From a virus, in IMG/VR virus record IMGVR_UViG_3300004369_000181, positions 1-21,347 of that record: a DNA stretch of 21,347 nucleotides; one strand, written 5' to 3'. The notes under the pieces are model-generated. The model did no database searches and was not told the origin of the DNA. It was given only the letters and a program-made list of their open reading frames with translations. Every line of letters begins with the position of its first letter. Position 1 is the first letter of the stretch. The position numbers and the translations under genes are program-made. Below are positions 5,304-17,536 of this stretch, in pieces.

Positions 5304-5601
5304 CACGGGCCTGAAGGCCCTACTCCTCAAACTGGACATCACCGAGGTCTTTAAGACCAAGGGGGACCTCAAACGTTGGTCTGCCAAACGCACCGTCGGT
5401 GGTGTCGTTGTACTCACCGCTTGCAACGAGGCCCTCGACAGTGGCATCACGTGGCCTGTTGTGGCCATGTGTGCCGTCGGGGTGCTACCGTTGTGCCTAT
5501 CCTTTTTTGAAAATGAAAGTCAACCACGTGGCCGCAAACGTCCACACCCTACACACCGAGTTCGAGACAGGGGAGACACAAAGGTTACTCGTTCTCTCTG
5601 A
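5296..5601 (+). CDS. Two-helix membrane protein, second holin candidate
   Basis: The most likely start is GTG at 5296, overlapping the previous stop by 8 bases; a GTG at 5275 would add seven residues. The 101-residue protein has a polar N-terminus ending 'LKRWSAKRTVGG', then two membrane helices (about 38-52 and 57-73: VVVLTACNEA and TWPVVAMCAVGVLPLCLSF). The 'RWSAKRTVGG' segment before the first helix recurs in phage holin-like proteins. The last 30 residues are basic and overlap the phosphoesterase gene by 89 bases, so this tail may be poorly constrained. Together with the preceding gene it could form a holin/antiholin pair; that is inference. Confidence 0.55.
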   Translation: MSNTGLKALLLKLDITEVFKTKGDLKRWSAKRTVGGVVVLTACNEALDSGITWPVVAMCAVGVLPLCLSFFENESQPRGRKRPHPTHRVRDRGDTKVTRSL

Positions 5602-6382
5602 CGTACACTACGATAGCACCCACTGTGACCGGGAACTCCTAACCAAACACCTTGAGGAGGCCAAGGCCACCTCATCACCCATATTCCTGAACGGAGATTT
5701 CCTCGACCTCATGGGTGGGAAGTACGACCCACGTAACACGCTACCGGGGGGCCTACGGCCCGAGTACAGGGGTCAGGACTACTTCGACCTTGTTATTGAG
5801 GACGCGGTGCGTTATTTGGCCCCCTACGCACACCTCATCATTGCCTACGGTCAGGGCAACCACGAAACCAACGTACGGAAACGACAACACACCGACCCCT
5901 CCCGTCGCATGGTTGAGGGGTTGAAGGCCCTTGGGTCACCCCTGGCCTTGGGTGGTTATGCCGGTTGGATAAGGTGGTATTGCACCTATTCAACGGAGCG
6001 TACGTCGTACGTGATACACTATCACCACGGCATGGGGGGCAATGCCCCACGGTCCAAGGGGGTGTTGCATGCTGACATAGACACGGCCCGTTATCCTGAT
6101 GCCGACTTCATTGTCCGTGGCCACGACCACAACAAATGGCACGTCCCCATGGTGGTCGAACGGCTAACGACCAAGAACCACCGACACCGTAAGACCATAC
6201 ACCACGTCCGTTGTGGGTCATATAAGGCCATGGGGGACGGTGTGTCGGGTTGGGAGGTAGAGAAAGGGTTTGGTCAACCCCGTTTGGGTGGGTATTGGTT
6301 GAAGGTGACCCGGAGTGGACACAACAGTCGTGGCAAGAGGGACCGGTTGTGGACAACAAACGTTGAGGAGGCATATTGGTAA
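5513..6382 (+). CDS. Calcineurin-like metallophosphoesterase
   Basis: I start it at the ATG at 5513 because the upstream extension of the frame runs inside the membrane-protein gene. The 289-residue protein carries the full two-metal phosphoesterase signature: 'LVLSDVHYD' (D30, H32), 'LNGDFLDL' (G61-D62), 'GQGNHET' (N116, H117), 'IHYHHG' (His cluster 169-172) and 'VRGHDHNKWH' (H204, H206). Such enzymes hydrolyse phosphomono- or diesters; the substrate cannot be read. It is the last gene before the strong terminator at 6418 and is grouped with lysis genes. Relatives in phages are sometimes annotated as DNA-repair exonuclease-like, but the SbcD/Mre11 capping domain is absent, so a small phosphodiester or nucleotide substrate seems more likely. 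Confidence 0.85.
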   Translation: MKVNHVAANVHTLHTEFETGETQRLLVLSDVHYDSTHCDRELLTKHLEEAKATSSPIFLNGDFLDLMGGKYDPRNTLPGGLRPEYRGQDYFDLVIEDAVRYLAPYAHLIIAYGQGNHETNVRKRQHTDPSRRMVEGLKALGSPLALGGYAGWIRWYCTYSTERTSYVIHYHHGMGGNAPRSKGVLHADIDTARYPDADFIVRGHDHNKWHVPMVVERLTTKNHRHRKTIHHVRCGSYKAMGDGVSGWEVEKGFGQPRLGGYWLKVTRSGHNSRGKRDRLWTTNVEEAYW

Positions 6383-12541: not shown

Positions 12542-13063
12542 GTGCTTGAACAGTACATCCAAACAAACTACAACACCCTTGCCAACATTGCCCGCACAAT
12601 CACCCACAACAGGACCCCCGATTGGGAGGACCTGTTAAGTGAGGTCGTGTTGGTAATTTTGGAAAGTGACCGTGCCCGTATGGAGGCCCTAATTGGCCGA
12701 AATCAGATGAGGTATTGGGTCACCCGTATCATGTTGAACCAGTACAACAGTAGCACAAGCCCTTATCATTACAAGTACCGGATGCACACGGTCCGCCACC
12801 GTAAAGCAGACCCGGAGATACGTCGTTGGTTGGCCGAGGGGGACCGTGACGAAATACAGGCCCGTGAGGTCATGTTGGAGTACGTTGAGGAGGCCCTTAA
12901 AGACATGGACTACTTCGACCGCATGGTCACGACCATATACTACAAGCACGGCCACTCATTGAACACCTTGGCCGCTGAAACCGGTATATCAAGAACCACA
13001 CTGTACAAAGCAATCAAACGCACACGCCATGCCATTGCAGAAAAACTCAAAGACGCAAAGTAA
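12542..13063 (+). CDS. Sigma-70-like transcription factor
   Basis: Starts at GTG 12542, 8 bases after the ninG stop. The 173-residue protein has a region-2-like N-terminus, 'TLANIARTITHNRTPDWEDLLSEVVLVILES' (split: TLANIARTITHNRTPD, WEDLLSEVVLVILES), with the 'DLlsEv.l.il' core, and a basic middle with 'YWVTRIMLNQYNSSTSPYHYK'-like content (YWVTRIMLNQYN, SSTSPYHYK). The C-terminus carries a region-4 HTH: 'HGHSLNTLAAETGISRTTLYKAIKRTR' (split: SLNTLAAETGIS, RTTLYKAIKRTR; residues 139-162). It probably redirects host RNA polymerase to phage promoters, most likely late ones. This family is typical of Bacteroidota phages. Sigma activity is inferred. Confidence 0.75.
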   Translation: MLEQYIQTNYNTLANIARTITHNRTPDWEDLLSEVVLVILESDRARMEALIGRNQMRYWVTRIMLNQYNSSTSPYHYKYRMHTVRHRKADPEIRRWLAEGDRDEIQAREVMLEYVEEALKDMDYFDRMVTTIYYKHGHSLNTLAAETGISRTTLYKAIKRTRHAIAEKLKDAK

Positions 13064-13406
13064 AGGGGTCGGGGACACCATTGCCAAAATCACCAAGGCC
13101 ACGGGGGTTGACAAACTTGTCCACGCTATTGTGGGGGACGATTGTGGGTGTGAACAACGTAGGCAAACCCTCAACAGGTTGTTCCCCTACGCCACACCCA
13201 TGGACGCTGAAGCACGGGCCACGTACGAGGCCACGTTCAACGGGTGGGAGCAGTGGCCGGAGTTTAACCTGGAGAAGCAGAGGGTCCTTGTCACTATGCT
13301 TACAACCCACACGGGCCGACGTTACAAGTTGACCAGGTGTGGGTCGTGTGTACGGCAAAACATGAAACAACTGGAAACCATTTACAACAACTCTTGTGAG
13401 CAGTAA
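13029..13406 (+). CDS. Conserved Bacteroidota-phage protein with paired cysteines
   Basis: 125 residues; the ATG at 13029 is 35 bases inside the sigma-like gene. The motif 'GVGDTIAKITKATGVDKLV' (13-31) followed by 'GDDCGCEQR' (C39, C41), 'LNRLFPY', and C-terminal 'LTRCGSCVRQNMKQL' (C104, C107) matches a family I have seen beside sigma-like and ParB-like genes in Bacteroidota phages. The four cysteines are placed to hold one zinc ion. The middle section is a helix rich in Glu/Trp (ATYEATFNGWEQWPEF). Function is unknown; a role with RNA polymerase or the replisome is only a guess from context. Confidence 0.65.
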   Translation: MPLQKNSKTQSKGVGDTIAKITKATGVDKLVHAIVGDDCGCEQRRQTLNRLFPYATPMDAEARATYEATFNGWEQWPEFNLEKQRVLVTMLTTHTGRRYKLTRCGSCVRQNMKQLETIYNNSCEQ

Positions 13407-13416
13407 ACCAACCACC

Positions 13417-13938
13417 ATGAAGTTGAGCCAAGTACGGCCCAACCCCGACAACCCACGGTCCATCACCGAGGAGAAATTCCGTTTGCTTGTAAAGTCCGTA
13501 AAAGAGGCCCCGTGGATGTTACCTATCAGACCCCTCGTGGTGGACGAAACCAACACCGTACTGGGTGGCAACATGCGCCTCCGTGCCCTACAAGAGGCCG
13601 GTGTCAAAGAGGTGCCGGTCTACAAGGTGACGGGCCTCACCGATGAGCAGAAACGTGAGTTTGTAATCAAGGACAACGTAGGTTTCGGTCAGTGGGACTA
13701 CGACGTGCTTGCTAACGAGTGGCCCACCGACCTCCTAAACGAGTGGGGCATGGACCTTTGGGACCCGTCCGAGGAACCAGACCTTGATGAATTTTTTGAG
13801 ACGGTGGACGACGAGAAGGAGGGCAAGTTCAGGGTGGTGTTAGATTACACGGAGGCCGACTACAACACGGTCGTGGAACTGTTTAAGAACCACGACGGGT
13901 CACGTGAGGACGTGGTGCTACGGTTGCTTCAGGGATGA
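13417..13938 (+). CDS. ParB/sulfiredoxin-like nuclease-fold protein
   Basis: I prefer ATG 13417 (MKLSQVRPNPDNPR), although GTG 13396 in the same frame overlaps the previous stop. The protein (173 aa) shows the ParB N-terminal fold: 'RPNPDNPR' (7-14), 'FRLLVKSVKE', 'RPLVVDETNTVLGGNMRLRALQEAG' (split: RPLVVDETNTVLGGN, MRLRALQEAG; the GGNMR loop binds CTP/ATP in ParB) and 'FVIKDNVGFGQWDYDVLA'. An acidic C-terminal half follows. Stand-alone phage copies often sit beside DNA-modification enzymes and may act as nucleases or ATP-dependent regulators. Here it couples directly by ATGA (13935-13938) to the DpdA-like gene, which suggests a shared job in DNA modification. Confidence 0.8.
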   Translation: MKLSQVRPNPDNPRSITEEKFRLLVKSVKEAPWMLPIRPLVVDETNTVLGGNMRLRALQEAGVKEVPVYKVTGLTDEQKREFVIKDNVGFGQWDYDVLANEWPTDLLNEWGMDLWDPSEEPDLDEFFETVDDEKEGKFRVVLDYTEADYNTVVELFKNHDGSREDVVLRLLQG

Positions 13939-14675
13939 AGATTTTTTTGGCCGGGTCCGGGTGGGACAAAATTGTGTGGAGACGCAGGGGGTTCTACGAC
14001 TTCAACCGTCTTGAGTCGTTCTACATCATTGGTGACGAAAGGGAGGACATACACAAGTACAAGGCATTCCTGTTGGACAGTGGGGCCTTCTCGTACATGA
14101 GTGGCAAACGTAAGGACGCAACACCATGTGACTGGGATGCCTACATCGAGGAGTACGCCAAGTTCATCAACAGGTGGGACGTACAACACTTCTTTGAACT
14201 GGACATCGACGTGCTTGTAGGCCTTGAGGAGGTGGACCGTTTACGGGCCAAATTGGAGAACCTAACCGGCAAGCAAGCAATCCCCGTTTGGCACAAGTCA
14301 AGGGGGTTGGACTACTGGAAACGCATGGTTGAGAAGTATGACTACGTGGCCATCGGTGGTATCGTCACCAAGGAAATCAAACGGAGTGAGTACGGCATAT
14401 TTCACACCCTGTTACGTATAGCGCGTGAGAACAGGTGTAAGGTCCACGGGTTAGGGTTCACCAACCTCAAAACTCTTTTGGATTTCGACTTCTACTCCGT
14501 AGATTCGACGTCGTGGTTAGGTGGCAACCGTTTCGGTTTCATATACCACTTCAACGGCCGGTCCCTGGACATGATTAAGCGTAAACCTAACCAAAGGGTG
14601 AAGGCCCACCCGGTGGCACACCACAACTTTGAACAGTGGATGAAATTCAACAACTACATAGAATCAATCACATGA
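13935..14675 (+). CDS. dpdA: DpdA-like DNA-guanine transglycosylase
   Basis: 246 residues related to tRNA-guanine transglycosylase but much shorter and without its C-terminal zinc site. Visible landmarks: 'LLDSGAFSYM' (46-55, D48, equivalent to the DSGGFQ aspartate), 'FFELDIDVLVG' (86-96), 'IPVWHKSRG' (116-124), 'YVAIGGIV' (137-144), 'VHGLGFT' (170-176) and 'FYSVDSTSWLGG' (186-197, with D190 as the probable nucleophile). Enzymes of this type exchange guanine in DNA for a free 7-deazaguanine base. The neighbours are the complete precursor pathway, which strongly supports this role over a tRNA one. It shares ATGA overlaps with the ParB-like gene before and the queC homologue after. Which DpdA subfamily it belongs to needs a phylogeny. 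Confidence 0.85.
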   Translation: MKIFLAGSGWDKIVWRRRGFYDFNRLESFYIIGDEREDIHKYKAFLLDSGAFSYMSGKRKDATPCDWDAYIEEYAKFINRWDVQHFFELDIDVLVGLEEVDRLRAKLENLTGKQAIPVWHKSRGLDYWKRMVEKYDYVAIGGIVTKEIKRSEYGIFHTLLRIARENRCKVHGLGFTNLKTLLDFDFYSVDSTSWLGGNRFGFIYHFNGRSLDMIKRKPNQRVKAHPVAHHNFEQWMKFNNYIESIT

Positions 14676-15337
14676 AACAGTGTACCGTGCTACTCTCCGG
14701 TGGCCAAGACTCTGCCACGTGCCTGTATTGGGCCGTCAACAACTACGACAAGGTCCACACCATGTCCTTCAACTACGGACAATCCCACGCCAAGGAATTG
14801 GAGTTTGCCAAGGCCAACGCACAACGGGTTGGGGCCACCTGGGAACTCATCGACGTAAGGGGTACCCTCAAGGGGTCGTCCCTGTTGTCCGACCAGGACC
14901 ACAACGAGGGCCACACCATGAACAGTGACTTGCCGTCAAGTTTCGTGCCCGGTCGCAACCTGTTGTTTCTAACCATAGCGGCCGGCCATGCCGCCCTCGA
15001 AGGTTGTACCACCTTGGTCACCGGTGTGTGCCAAACCGACTTCAGTGGGTACCCCGATTGCAGACGTGACACCATGGATGCCTTGGAGAAGGCCCTGTCA
15101 TTGGGTATTGGGTTGGACTTTACCATTGAAACCCCCTTGATGTTTTTAACCAAGGCCGAGACGTTTAAACTGGCCAACGACTTGGGGTGCCTTGATGTCA
15201 TTGTGGAACACACGCTGACCGATTACAACGGTGACATGACCCTCAACGAGTGGGGCCGTGGCCGGTTGGACAACCCTGCAAGTGTACTCCGGGCCAAGGG
15301 TTGGGACGAAGCAAAAGAGAAGGGATGGGTCGGGTAG
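14672..15337 (+). CDS. queC: QueC homologue lacking the zinc-binding cysteines
   Basis: 221 residues from the ATG at 14672 (ATGA overlap). The N-terminal PP-loop 'LLSGGQDSATC' (SGGQDS 9-14), 'FNYGQSHAKEL', 'SSFVPGRNLLFLTIAAGHA', 'VTGVCQTDFSGYPDCR' (117-131) and 'IETPLMFLTKAET' are all as in QueC, which converts 7-carboxy-7-deazaguanine to preQ0 through an amide intermediate. The C-terminal zinc site is lost: the usual TLTCYNG reads TLTDYNG (D184), and the region equivalent to the C-x-x-C-x-x-C cluster reads WGRGRLDNPASVLRAKG (194-210) with no cysteine. The enzyme may have a changed product or fold without metal. It begins the Que part of the cassette, between dpdA and a DUF6884-like gene. Confidence 0.85.
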   Translation: MKQCTVLLSGGQDSATCLYWAVNNYDKVHTMSFNYGQSHAKELEFAKANAQRVGATWELIDVRGTLKGSSLLSDQDHNEGHTMNSDLPSSFVPGRNLLFLTIAAGHAALEGCTTLVTGVCQTDFSGYPDCRRDTMDALEKALSLGIGLDFTIETPLMFLTKAETFKLANDLGCLDVIVEHTLTDYNGDMTLNEWGRGRLDNPASVLRAKGWDEAKEKGWVG

Positions 15338-15747
15338 CACTTGTCAGTTGTGGGTCCAAAAAACAGGACCACCCATGCCCGGCCCGGAACCTGTACAACG
15401 GGGTCCTGTTTAACAAGCACCGCAAGTGGGCCGACGCTTTCACGGACGACCTTTACATCTTGTCGGCCAAATACGGCCTCATACATGGCACCAAAGTGAT
15501 TGAACCATACAACCTCACCCTCAACCGCATGAAACGAGCAGACAGGGAGCGGTGGGGCCGTTACGTGGCAAACCAAATCCAAACCACCATCCCTCCGGGG
15601 GAGACGTTGTTGTTCTTGGCCGGCAAACCGTACTACGAGAACGTCATTGGACACATCAAACACACCTACGAAATACCCTTTGAGGGGTTGACACTTGGGT
15701 ATCGTTACCAAACCATCGACAAACACGTGGCCAATGGTCATACGTAA
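15325..15747 (+). CDS. DUF6884-like protein in the deazaguanine cassette
   Basis: 140 residues from ATG 15325, overlapping queC by 13 bases. The signature 'VALVSCGSKKQDHPCPARNLYNGVLF' (split: VALVSCGSKK, QDHPCPARNLYNGVLF), 'DDLYILSAKYGLIHGTKVIEPYNLTL' (split: DDLYILSAKYGLIHG, TKVIEPYNLTL) and 'LLFLAGKPYYENVI' matches the family I recall as DUF6884: an SCgkKK start, an aRdLY..pLF helix, an lSAkyGLl..d....PYd..L core. Its biochemical role is not established to my knowledge. The conserved Cys9, Lys12-13, Lys49-Tyr50 and Pro61-Tyr62 look like an active-site cluster. Because it is embedded between queC and queD, I infer a step in making, inserting or tailoring the modified base. Confidence 0.7.
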   Translation: MGRVALVSCGSKKQDHPCPARNLYNGVLFNKHRKWADAFTDDLYILSAKYGLIHGTKVIEPYNLTLNRMKRADRERWGRYVANQIQTTIPPGETLLFLAGKPYYENVIGHIKHTYEIPFEGLTLGYRYQTIDKHVANGHT

Positions 15748-16135
15748 GATTTACCACTTCTACGCAGCACACCGGAACAAAGAGGCCGGGGTGAAGTGTG
15801 GCCGCCTACATGGGCACACCTACGACGTGGCCGTCCACGTGGCGTTCCCTAACTTTGACGGTGACGTGGCCATGCTATTCAGTGACATTGACAAGGTGGC
15901 CGAACCAGTCATCAAGTCCTTTGACCACTACCTTATCCTCGACAGTCGTGACCCCTTGGTGCCCTTGCTACGGTCGTGTCACGAACCATTTGTGGAAGTA
16001 CCCTTTGCCACAAGTGCCGAGAACATGGCCCGCCACATTGCCCACCTGTTGGAGGACCAGGGGTTGACGGTGGCCCGTATTGAGTTAGCAGAAACCAAAT
16101 CCTCAACCGTTATCTATGAACCTTCCCATCAGTGA
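15734..16135 (+). CDS. queD: 6-carboxy-5,6,7,8-tetrahydropterin synthase
   Basis: 133 residues from ATG 15734, overlapping the DUF6884-like gene by 14 bases. It has the PTPS/QueD pattern: 'FYAAHRN' (zinc ligand H13), 'KCGRLHGHTYDV' (catalytic C22, zinc ligands H26 and H28), 'FSDIDKV' near 49-55, 'FDHYLILD' (63-70), 'ATSAENMARHIA' (92-103) and the terminal 'ELAETKSS' (E120). QueD turns dihydroneopterin triphosphate, the FolE product, into 6-carboxytetrahydropterin, the QueE substrate. The family's usual 'PTSEN' reads 'ATSAEN' here, a small change. It overlaps queE by 20 bases, consistent with coupled translation. Confidence 0.92.
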   Translation: MVIRKIYHFYAAHRNKEAGVKCGRLHGHTYDVAVHVAFPNFDGDVAMLFSDIDKVAEPVIKSFDHYLILDSRDPLVPLLRSCHEPFVEVPFATSAENMARHIAHLLEDQGLTVARIELAETKSSTVIYEPSHQ

Positions 16136-16715
16136 AATTTTCTACTCCCTACAAGGGGAGGGTGCCCGTACCGGCACGGCCAACGTGTTCGTCCGTATTC
16201 AGGGGTGTAAAGCAAAGAACGCTTGTTACGCCATGGGCATCAAGTGTGACACCGAGTTTGAGAGTGGTGTGGACATGACCCTGGACGAACTGTTGGGTGT
16301 TATCCAACGTATTGGGGGCAAGTGTCGCAACATTATTTGGACAGGTGGTGAACCGGCCGACCGTGTGAACGAGGACGTGGTGGCGTACTTTAAGCGTGAG
16401 GGGTACTATCAAACCATAGAAACCTCCGGCCTGTTCCCAGTGGCCGACGGGTTTGACTTTGTGTCGGTATCACCCAAGGTGGCCGAGCATGTTGTGGCCA
16501 AGAACTTCACCCACGTCGATGAGTTACGGTACGTCAGGCACTACGGGCAAGCAATTCCCGAGCCGTCCATCACGGCCGACTACCTATACCTTTCACCCCA
16601 CTTTGATGGGTACGACATCAACCCCGACAACCTCAAACACTGCATGGACCTGTGCCTTGCTAACCCCTTGTGGCGGTTGTCCGTACAAGACCACAAACTA
16701 TGGAACATCCTTTGA
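16116..16715 (+). CDS. queE: 7-carboxy-7-deazaguanine synthase (radical SAM)
   Basis: 199 residues. The N-terminal 'ISEIFYSLQGEGARTGTANVFVR' (split: ISEIFYSLQGEG, ARTGTANVFVR) and 'WTGGEPAD' (75-82) are classic QueE. The radical-SAM cysteines are in 'IQGCKAKNACYAMGIKCDTEF': C31, C37, C44, that is C-x5-C-x6-C instead of the usual C-x3-C-x2-C or C-x14-C-x2-C. The CDTEF ending keeps the family's substrate loop. QueE contracts 6-carboxytetrahydropterin to 7-carboxy-7-deazaguanine using a [4Fe-4S] cluster, SAM and Mg2+. The C-terminal half is short, as in small QueE variants. Strong context: queD before and folE after, both overlapping. Confidence 0.9.
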   Translation: MNLPISEIFYSLQGEGARTGTANVFVRIQGCKAKNACYAMGIKCDTEFESGVDMTLDELLGVIQRIGGKCRNIIWTGGEPADRVNEDVVAYFKREGYYQTIETSGLFPVADGFDFVSVSPKVAEHVVAKNFTHVDELRYVRHYGQAIPEPSITADYLYLSPHFDGYDINPDNLKHCMDLCLANPLWRLSVQDHKLWNIL

Positions 16716-17536
16716 ACGTAACGTGGGCCGACATACGGTCCAAACTGGCCGAGGTAACGGACCCCGAGAAACGGTATTGGGGAGTCCCCCGGGGTGGGGA
16801 GATTTGTGTCAACCTGTTACCCACCACCATGATAGCAGAAACACCACAAGAGGCCGACGTAATCATCGACGACCTTGTGGACAGTGGGCACACCCGTGAC
16901 ATGATGGTGGGTTTGTACGGCAAACCCTTTGTCGGCTTGTGGGACAAACAAACGGACCCCGACTGTAAAGGACGTTGGATTCAGTTCCCTTGGGAACATG
17001 AGGCCGAAAGGGACGTAGAGCAGCACATGGCCCGGGTGATACAGTCGTTTGACGACATCAACCGTGAGGGCCTACAAGACACCCCACGACGGTACATCAA
17101 GTTCCTGTCCGAGTTTCTACAACCACCGGAATGGACGTGTACCACGTTTGATGCCGAGGGGTACGACAACATGATTGTGCAAACCAACATTCCGTTCTAC
17201 TCGTTGTGTGAACACCACCTTGCCCCATTCTTTGGGCATGGCCACATTGCGTACATACCAAACAAACGCATCGTCGGACTGTCCAAGTTGGCCCGTACTT
17301 TGGAAACCTTCTCACGACGGTTCCAAAATCAGGAACGTATCACCAACCAGGTGGCCGATTTCCTCATGAACGAGTTGGACCCCCTTGGGGTGGCGGTGGT
17401 ATTGGAGGCCGAGCATCTTTGTATGGCCATGCGTGGGGTGAAGAAGCCCAACACCAAGACCCGCACGTCCAAGTTGACGGGGGTGTTTGAGAAACAGGCC
17501 GAAACACGTCACGAGTTCCTTATATTGACACAGTGA
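16700..17536 (+). CDS. folE: Fusion of a phosphoribosyltransferase-like domain with GTP cyclohydrolase I
   Basis: 278 residues from ATG 16700, overlapping queE by 16 bases. Residues 1-105 form a type I phosphoribosyltransferase-like domain: 'YWGVPRGGEI' (27-35, the PPi loop), 'ADVIIDDLVDSGHTRDMM' (52-69, the PRPP motif) and 'GRWIQFPWE' (91-99), which resembles the purine-contacting 'TWIEQPWD' of E. coli xanthine-guanine phosphoribosyltransferase. The middle is shorter than in Gpt. Residues 106-278 are GTP cyclohydrolase I: 'DTPRRYIKFL', 'FYSLCEHHLAPFFGHGHIAYIP' (split: FYSLCEHHLAPFFGHG, HIAYIP; C170, H173), 'IVGLSKLAR', 'QERITNQVADFL' and 'EAEHLCMAMRGV' (C241). FolE makes dihydroneopterin triphosphate from GTP, the first step toward 7-deazaguanine. 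The fusion could feed recycled guanine into that step. Confidence 0.9.
   Translation: MEHPLNVTWADIRSKLAEVTDPEKRYWGVPRGGEICVNLLPTTMIAETPQEADVIIDDLVDSGHTRDMMVGLYGKPFVGLWDKQTDPDCKGRWIQFPWEHEAERDVEQHMARVIQSFDDINREGLQDTPRRYIKFLSEFLQPPEWTCTTFDAEGYDNMIVQTNIPFYSLCEHHLAPFFGHGHIAYIPNKRIVGLSKLARTLETFSRRFQNQERITNQVADFLMNELDPLGVAVVLEAEHLCMAMRGVKKPNTKTRTSKLTGVFEKQAETRHEFLILTQ

Follow-up and report, generated by a model that had tools for sequence, protein, structure and literature searches.

The virus record IMGVR_UViG_3300004369_000181, a linear stretch of 21,347 bases that was analysed in full and is called the window below, carries a cassette that we consider likely to make a 7-deazaguanine base and insert it into phage DNA, with 7-amido-7-deazaguanine in DNA (dADG) as the main product. 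Seven overlapping open reading frames (ORFs) at 13396-17536 on the + strand encode a ParB_N-domain protein, a DpdA resembling tRNA-guanine transglycosylases (TGTs), QueC, a DUF6884 protein, QueD, QueE and FolE. The cassette is supported by the presence of these genes, their predicted folds, their conservation and their linkage, and their family matches, judged by sequence comparison, were far beyond chance. A first-pass annotation made from the sequence alone had listed the same seven genes, and all of them were recovered as overlapping, family-matched ORFs on the + strand; it did not mention that DUF6884 is linked to bacterial DpdC, that FolE bears a phosphoribosyltransferase (PRT) domain, that QueC is zinc-free or that the cysteines of QueE are unusual. 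The features are as follows, with E values in brackets.

13396..13938, + strand: ParB_N-domain protein (PF02195, 1.3e-7; phrog_498, 5e-29; phrog_620, 2e-26)
13935..14675, + strand: DpdA-type DNA guanine transglycosylase, predicted, 246 amino acids (phrog_887, 8.6e-53)
14672..15337, + strand: QueC, zinc-free by motif survey (PF06508, 2.3e-57; 3bl5, 1.1e-66)
15325..15747, + strand: DUF6884 protein, minimal DpdC-like core, 140 amino acids (PF21818, 5.8e-38; PADLOC DpdC, 5e-9)
15734..16135, + strand: QueD, 6-carboxytetrahydropterin synthase (PF01242, 6.1e-21; TIGR03367, 3.6e-17, below cut-off)
16116..16715, + strand: QueE (TIGR04508, 1.1e-29, below cut-off; 4njg, 6.8e-27)
16700..17008, + strand: compact xanthine/guanine PRT-like domain, N-terminal in the FolE ORF (profile, 4e-8 to 2e-7)
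17009..17536, + strand: FolE (GTP cyclohydrolase I) domain, C-terminal in the PRT-FolE ORF (PF01227, 2.2e-60)

Two starts are possible for the ParB gene, GTG 13396 and ATG 13417. QueC probably begins at ATG 14672, DUF6884 at ATG 15325, QueD at ATG 15734 and PRT-FolE at ATG 16700, the last with GTG 16670 as an alternative.

The cassette as such is not new, as the order ParB-DpdA-QueC-QueD-QueE-FolE is known in phages Sonali and CRB2, and dozens of viral contigs repeat the gene order of the window. Arthrobacter phage Sonali (MK411746) has the same order, with ParB directly before its TGT-like gene, but unlike the window it has no DUF6884, retains the zinc cysteines in QueC and has no detected PRT domain. 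Mycobacteriophages of the CRB2/Rosebush type likewise carry DpdA and genes for the nitrile base preQ0, and preQ0 in DNA (dPreQ0) has been measured in Rosebush (PMC6392294, PMC6884629; papers are cited here and below from excerpts), whereas no DpdC-like gene is reported in the excerpts of these two papers. What appears to be new in the window's variant is a predicted DpdC-like finishing step, a putative guanine-salvage domain on FolE, a zinc-free QueC and an unusual QueE. A search of phage DNA with the whole window as a DNA query gave zero matches. The record also encodes portal, amidase, NinG-like nuclease and terminase genes and is possibly a fragment, so the absence of QueF, ArcS and Tgt holds for this stretch only.

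We examined the placement of the protein at 13935-14675 by both profile and fold. Against the bacterial DpdA equivalog NF041059 it scored 20.9 bits (1.3e-4), short of the curated cut-off of 200 bits, and a DpdA profile had no match at E 1 among the sequences of solved structures, so that the fold search was decisive instead. An AlphaFold2 model built from 34 aligned relatives reached a pLDDT of 91.4, Foldseek returned tRNA-guanine transglycosylases in its top rows (best 1.7e-6), and VIA-align superposed 238 of the 246 residues on TGT (Z 15.8, root-mean-square deviation 3.4). By this model the protein is inside the TGT/DpdA superfamily, as the first-pass annotation had placed it, with a predicted TGT-type barrel across the catalytic domain. 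Two aspartates, D48 in DSGAFS (14076-14078) and D190 in VDSTSW (14502-14504), were invariant in 34/34 aligned DpdAs; we take them to be the acid/base and nucleophile positions of TGT (D102/D280), an assignment for which no tool gave residue-level equivalence. In a tree of 160 DpdAs the window fell within the ParB-linked group, separate from CAjan and NP1. Single-sequence scans with DpdA and with QueC returned one locus each.

The PHROGs labels of such genes, 'queuine tRNA-ribosyltransferase' (the label of phrog_887) and 'auxiliary metabolic gene', would suit a pathway whose target is tRNA (queuosine) or host metabolism rather than DNA. We regard this as highly improbable. The CxCxxC zinc site is a feature of tRNA TGTs, and it was found in none of 189 DpdA ORFs, the window included, which speaks against a tRNA TGT and leaves the superfamily claim to rest on the fold. 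The ParB_N domain paired with DpdA belongs to a type carried by phage DNA methyltransferases, and no queuosine-finishing enzyme was seen among the window ORFs scanned. As a separate observation, the ORF at L002:539-1876 (fetched loci are cited by L numbers), which precedes DpdA in the same reading frame, contains several short peptides like the DpdA N-terminus (M[KR]IHLAG-like), resembling a repeated first strand.

Gene linkage was examined in loci fetched from viral contigs with separate scans, of which the DpdA and PRT scans were represented by the best 80 loci of longer match lists and the DUF6884 scan by the best 80 of 238 relatives. Locus counts include overlapping contigs, and QueC and QueE counts include repeats; the distinct sequences numbered 75 in the PRT scan and 70 in the DUF6884 scan, 23 of the latter with DpdA. 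ParB lay within 600 bases of DpdA in 71 of the 80 DpdA loci, which agrees with the tight ParB-dpdA coupling proposed earlier, and QueC lay within the same distance in 66; QueD, QueE and FolE were present in the locus in 61, 60 and 59, respectively. Profile, fold and locus data favour the reading first annotated, in which a DpdA-type cassette with a ParB-like partner modifies DNA with a 7-deazaguanine. The ParB of the window is similar to the N-terminus of phage DNA methyltransferases (phrog_498). For CRB2, ORF1 has been suggested to be a ParB-superfamily protein homologous to DpdB (PMC6392294). The only domain match of the window protein was ParB_N (PF02195), with no DndB domain (PF14072), which argues against a DndB-type DpdB; in a control, a bacterial DpdB-like protein matched PF14072 at 1.2e-13. 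The window protein may work like DpdB, although it is not demonstrated to be DpdB, and we propose it as the DNA- or nucleotide-handling partner of DpdA.

The identity of the final base would depend on the DUF6884 protein, which matched PF21818 with 130.5 bits against a cut-off of 30. PADLOC DpdC models also matched it, over model positions 48-105 of 312 only. For comparison we took a bacterial DpdC from a scan of 398 proteobacterial genomes, two of which had matches; next after dpdC in the comparison genome comes a gene of DndB type, and PF21818 was detected in the bacterial protein at 4.8e-5. Aligned with this full-length DpdC, a profile built from ten DUF6884 proteins of phages gave an hhalign probability of 90 (E 1.4e-6, 31% identity). 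In a published GATOR-GC analysis the domain given for DpdC is DUF6884, and Salmonella Montevideo is said to require dpdC for dADG (PMC11888242); the reaction of DpdC is the hydrolysis of dPreQ0, which yields dADG (PMC12839542). On these profile matches DUF6884 is the core of bacterial DpdC and the phage protein a predicted dPreQ0-to-dADG hydratase, so the predicted product is dADG rather than 7-carboxy-7-deazaguanine (CDG). The CDG-like product considered in the first-pass annotation is therefore not favoured, and QueC likewise retains its preQ0 motifs. dADG is present in phages 7-11 and MED16, whose last pathway steps are described as still to be elucidated (PMC6884629, PMC8306585); the small DUF6884 protein of the cassette is a direct candidate for the dADG-making enzyme in phages.

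The bacterial Dpd operon (dpdA-dpdB-dpdC) likewise combines a TGT-like DpdA with a partner that handles nucleotides and a DpdC that contains DUF6884 (PMC11888242). The window differs in having ParB_N in place of the DndB-type DpdB (PF14072) and 140 amino acids in place of a DpdC of about 310, and the window phage would make its own preQ0.

Two observations weigh against this assignment. The hhalign match spans only 49 columns of the approximately 310-residue bacterial DpdC, the phage protein being 140 amino acids long, and 50 of the 80 DUF6884 loci had no pathway enzyme in the fetched stretch, from which we conclude that the family is broader, with other roles or distant partners. If DUF6884 had another role, such as DNA binding or YaaA-like stress protection, the product would stay dPreQ0, as in Rosebush and CAjan; these phages encode DpdA and FolE-QueD-QueE-QueC, have no amidotransferase and carry dPreQ0 in 28% and 32% of Gs, respectively (PMC6884629). 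The AlphaFold2 model of DUF6884, built from six sequences (pLDDT 89.9), indeed matched the YaaA fold at 8.5e-5, and the loci without pathway genes point the same way. Against this outcome stand the profile link to bacterial DpdC and the linkage in relatives: at least one of DpdA, QueC, QueD, QueE and FolE was present in 30/80 DUF6884 loci (DpdA in 25), and in 28/80 it lay on the same strand within 300 bases, in varied orders; the base rate for comparison is a DpdA match in 267 of 50,697 phage records. We consider a dPreQ0 end product unlikely, though worth keeping in view, and the linkage bears out the earlier suggestion that DUF6884 is a working part of the cassette.

A cysteine near the N-terminus, followed by Lys or Arg after 2-3 residues (SCGSKK in the window), was present in 83 of 92 DUF6884 ORFs. 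The pattern was found in 37/38 ORFs with DpdA, QueC or QueE in the locus and in 46/54 without, and the conserved Cys is a candidate nucleophile that does not appear to be pathway-specific. DUF6884 was found in none of five virus records of relatives (0/5). Other proteins are encoded near the same place in related cassettes, namely an ArcS-type DUF5591 protein (L079, 8.8e-11) and a GATase domain fused ahead of QueC (L101), both preQ0-tailoring, Vut_1 transporters (L040, L049, L098) and, in QueC-less cassettes, methyltransferases (L080, L102). This modular tailoring place supports DUF6884 as the step that would fix the final base, here dADG. Homology between DUF6884 and ArcS was also considered, as both have a Cys and a Lys near the start and a similar place in the locus, and was rejected on an hhalign probability of 1.8 against the DUF5591 protein of L079.

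In several loci ParB, DpdA and DUF6884 are followed by a Vut_1/queuosine-precursor transporter (L004:7067-7669, L030:2619-3230, L040:2423-3028), with no Que genes in the stretch. Fusobacterium phage phiFN37 has ParB, DpdA and DUF6884 genes in direct succession, but unlike the window it has no Que genes in a 12.5-kb stretch and a queuosine-precursor transporter comes next. Phages of this type may import preQ0.

The QueC of the window is strongly similar to 3bl5, yet all four zinc cysteines of the C(x)8CxxCxxC motif are lost, being replaced by D183, R197, N200 and S203. Among 150 QueC ORFs in fetched loci, 79 had four cysteines, 60 were zinc-free by pattern (the window being counted two times among them, once under its own name and once as L001) and 11 were neither; by eye, four of the 11 were of the same zinc-free type, which brings it to about 64, five of a different Cys-less type and two truncated. 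A degenerate gene was rejected as the explanation, because the altered motif is conserved in many contigs. The motifs SGGxDS, YxQxHxxE and YPDC were kept in 60/60 zinc-free QueCs, as was the Tyr (position Y189) in what had been the zinc region; R94-N95 was invariant in 28/28, and the full preQ0 signature including (V)PxRN is present in the window. Mutation of E. coli QueC has shown four residues within these motifs to be essential, namely Tyr35, Arg99, Tyr131 and Tyr189 (Libby et al. 2026, PMC13329287). Since the catalytic motifs are kept and their residues have been tested as essential, the zinc-free QueC is probably still a preQ0 synthase. It counts against this that zinc is treated as required for QueC (PMC13329287); the excerpt of that paper holds no description of a zinc-free canonical QueC.

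An altered QueC that stops at the amide (ADG) or is inactive, with DpdA inserting ADG or CDG itself, would account for the loss of four zinc ligands in the window and a large clade. The QueC reaction runs via an ADG intermediate (PMC13329287), and QueC was absent from 31 of 151 DpdA+QueD loci (present in 120), in which case some DpdAs may take other bases. The universal retention of the catalytic motifs and of R94-N95, residues of these motifs being essential for preQ0 formation in the E. coli enzyme (PMC13329287), makes this distinctly unlikely. Whether the reaction needs zinc at all could be probed with such a zinc-free QueC, in which the preQ0 signature is intact. Further QueCs without zinc cysteines, with NTSYxP and THTSYDG forms, were noted in L162, L170, L233, L262 and L283 and in L008 and L009, and their sequences suggest more than one loss of the zinc site.

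The cysteines of QueE are also unusual. The window QueE has C-x5-C-x6-C ending in CDT (C31, C37, C44), with all three cysteines invariant in 28/28 aligned relatives. This fits neither known spacing, CxxxCxxC nor Cx14CxxC, a point that tells against the proposed pathway. The spacing occurred in 57 of 196 QueE ORFs; the others comprised Cx3Cx2C (57), CNLxC plus a third Cys far from it (46), Cx3Cx4C (18), Cx14Cx2C (8) and other forms (10). It occurred together with a zinc-free QueC in 39 loci and with a four-Cys QueC in three. Gene degeneration was rejected here as well, the motif being conserved in many contigs.

The FolE ORF encodes 288 amino acids, of which residues 118-286 form the FolE part, above the curated cut-offs of NF006826 (198.7 bits against 162) and TIGR00063 (190.1 against 181.6), and the N-terminal third forms the PRT-like domain. 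Searched alone, the first approximately 100 residues had no Pfam match and did not reach the Pribosyltran cut-off, whereas a stand-alone relative in L097 scored 35.6 bits against that cut-off of 26.3. A profile of 30 PRT sequences matched the solved structures 1vdm (4.1e-8) and E. coli Gpt (1.8e-7) end to end (positions 2-95 of 95). In the phosphoribosyl pyrophosphate (PRPP) motif, D55, D56, G61 and T63 were present in 30/30 sequences and D59 in 29/30 (Glu in one), and a Lys aligned to the base-binding Lys of Gpt in 25/30; the roles of these residues are those we take them to have in Gpt-like enzymes. By profile and PRPP motif the domain is a predicted 6-oxopurine phosphoribosyltransferase. 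It also shares with Gpt and other xanthine-guanine PRTs the final W-x-x-(F/Q)PW(E/D), and differs from Gpt in its length of about 100 amino acids, a much shorter stretch from PRGG to the PRPP motif and its fusion to FolE.

The PRT domain was found by tblastn in 31 of 50,697 phage records. Of the 30 records listed, all 27 annotated ones place it under a GTP cyclohydrolase feature, and the other three are unannotated. In Pseudomonas phages NP1 and Quinobequin-P09 and Vibrio phage VpKK5 a PRT-FolE fusion lies in a DpdA cassette as in the window and is annotated only as GTP cyclohydrolase, although these cassettes differ in having a CAjan-type DpdA branch without ParB and, in NP1, a GATase-QueC. 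The 80 PRT-scan loci all contained FolE, in the same ORF in 79, and 65 contained DpdA. Outside the loci fetched by that scan, PRT was present in 51 of 99 FolE+DpdA loci and in one of the 30 FolE loci whose stretch had no DpdA, a contrast that is no test of independent events because these loci are related. Its absence from the other 48 of the 99 counts against a general role and indicates that PRT is not obligatory. A few loci (L060, L068, L097, L113, L137) have PRT as a separate ORF, and a scan of cellular genomes gave seven loci, two with the whole cassette, one with QueE at a contig end and four weak ones without a cassette.

One guanine is freed by DpdA and one GTP used by FolE per base made, so that a guanine PRT on FolE would balance the two. 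We tentatively suggest that the PRT domain recycles the guanine expelled by DpdA, while holding this with somewhat less than even confidence. The domain could instead act on the 7-deazaguanine base and yield a nucleotide that polymerases would incorporate or that has a regulatory function, with no recycling of guanine, and both its 6-oxopurine profile and the presence of FolE in every PRT-scan locus would fit such a role. We judge this improbable. DpdA was present in 65 of the 80 PRT loci, making triphosphate incorporation unnecessary, and the Asp that we presume to contact purine N7 in 6-oxopurine PRTs was kept in 29/30 sequences, with Glu in one; as 7-deazaguanines have no N7, its retention makes their use less likely. 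No publication joining DpdA or FolE with a phosphoribosyltransferase was found in the literature listings, whose coverage is too partial to claim that the link is unpublished. In phage records of Pseudomonas, Stenotrophomonas and Vibrio the fusion goes by the simple label 'GTP cyclohydrolase', and guanine recycling is testable in cultured phages.

From sequence and linkage we infer the following scheme, in which the dADG product, guanine recycling, the ParB role and protection from restriction are all predictions. FolE, QueD and QueE would convert GTP to 7-carboxy-7-deazaguanine, and the zinc-free QueC, to judge from its kept catalytic motifs, would convert this to preQ0. After replication, DpdA and its ParB-fold helper would swap guanine in DNA for preQ0 and release free guanine, a reaction proposed from the predicted fold. 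The DUF6884/DpdC-like protein would then hydrate the nitrile in DNA, giving mainly dADG with some dPreQ0 remaining. The PRT domain on FolE would turn the expelled guanine into GMP, which host kinases would raise to GTP, the substrate of FolE, with one guanine released per base made. The presumed purpose is to shield phage DNA from restriction. Taken jointly, a closed guanine loop via PRT-FolE in DpdA phages, a working zinc-free QueC and a QueE iron-sulfur cluster on C-x5-C-x6-C are possible, though on balance we doubt that all three hold together.

Several variant cassettes were seen among the fetched loci. In QueC-less ParB-DpdA cassettes a glycosyltransferase-like ORF of about 330 amino acids lies between DpdA and QueD (PF00534, 1.5e-9 for L145), at L145:3123-4844, L164:2075-3872, L176:5477-6771 and L193:5667-6967 and also in L141, L147, L148, L172, L187 and L194. 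The four loci with coordinates have an extra ORF of about 110 amino acids, which matched phrog_17812 in the two tested and is QueD-like by eye, with PTPS at only 0.088. These cassettes are candidates for glycosylated 7-deazaguanine DNA. A SAM (S-adenosylmethionine) methyltransferase-like gene directly follows DpdA in other QueC-less loci (L080:2400-2963 and L102:2154-2717, with PF13489 at 6e-6 for L102; also L094 and L191), possibly giving methylated 7-carboxy-7-deazaguanine. In L149, L151, L156, L161, L166, L178, L192, L205 and L207, QueD follows DpdA within about 120 bases with neither QueC nor another gene between, and such cassettes may insert CDG itself.

Elsewhere in the window, positions 5399-6382, directly after the lysis region, encode a metallophosphatase/exonuclease-like protein (phrog_7339, 1.1e-17). 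A sigma-factor-like protein (phrog_1740, 7e-12) is encoded at 12542-13063, two genes upstream of the cassette, and L003 has an ORF of comparable length just before its ParB-DpdA pair.

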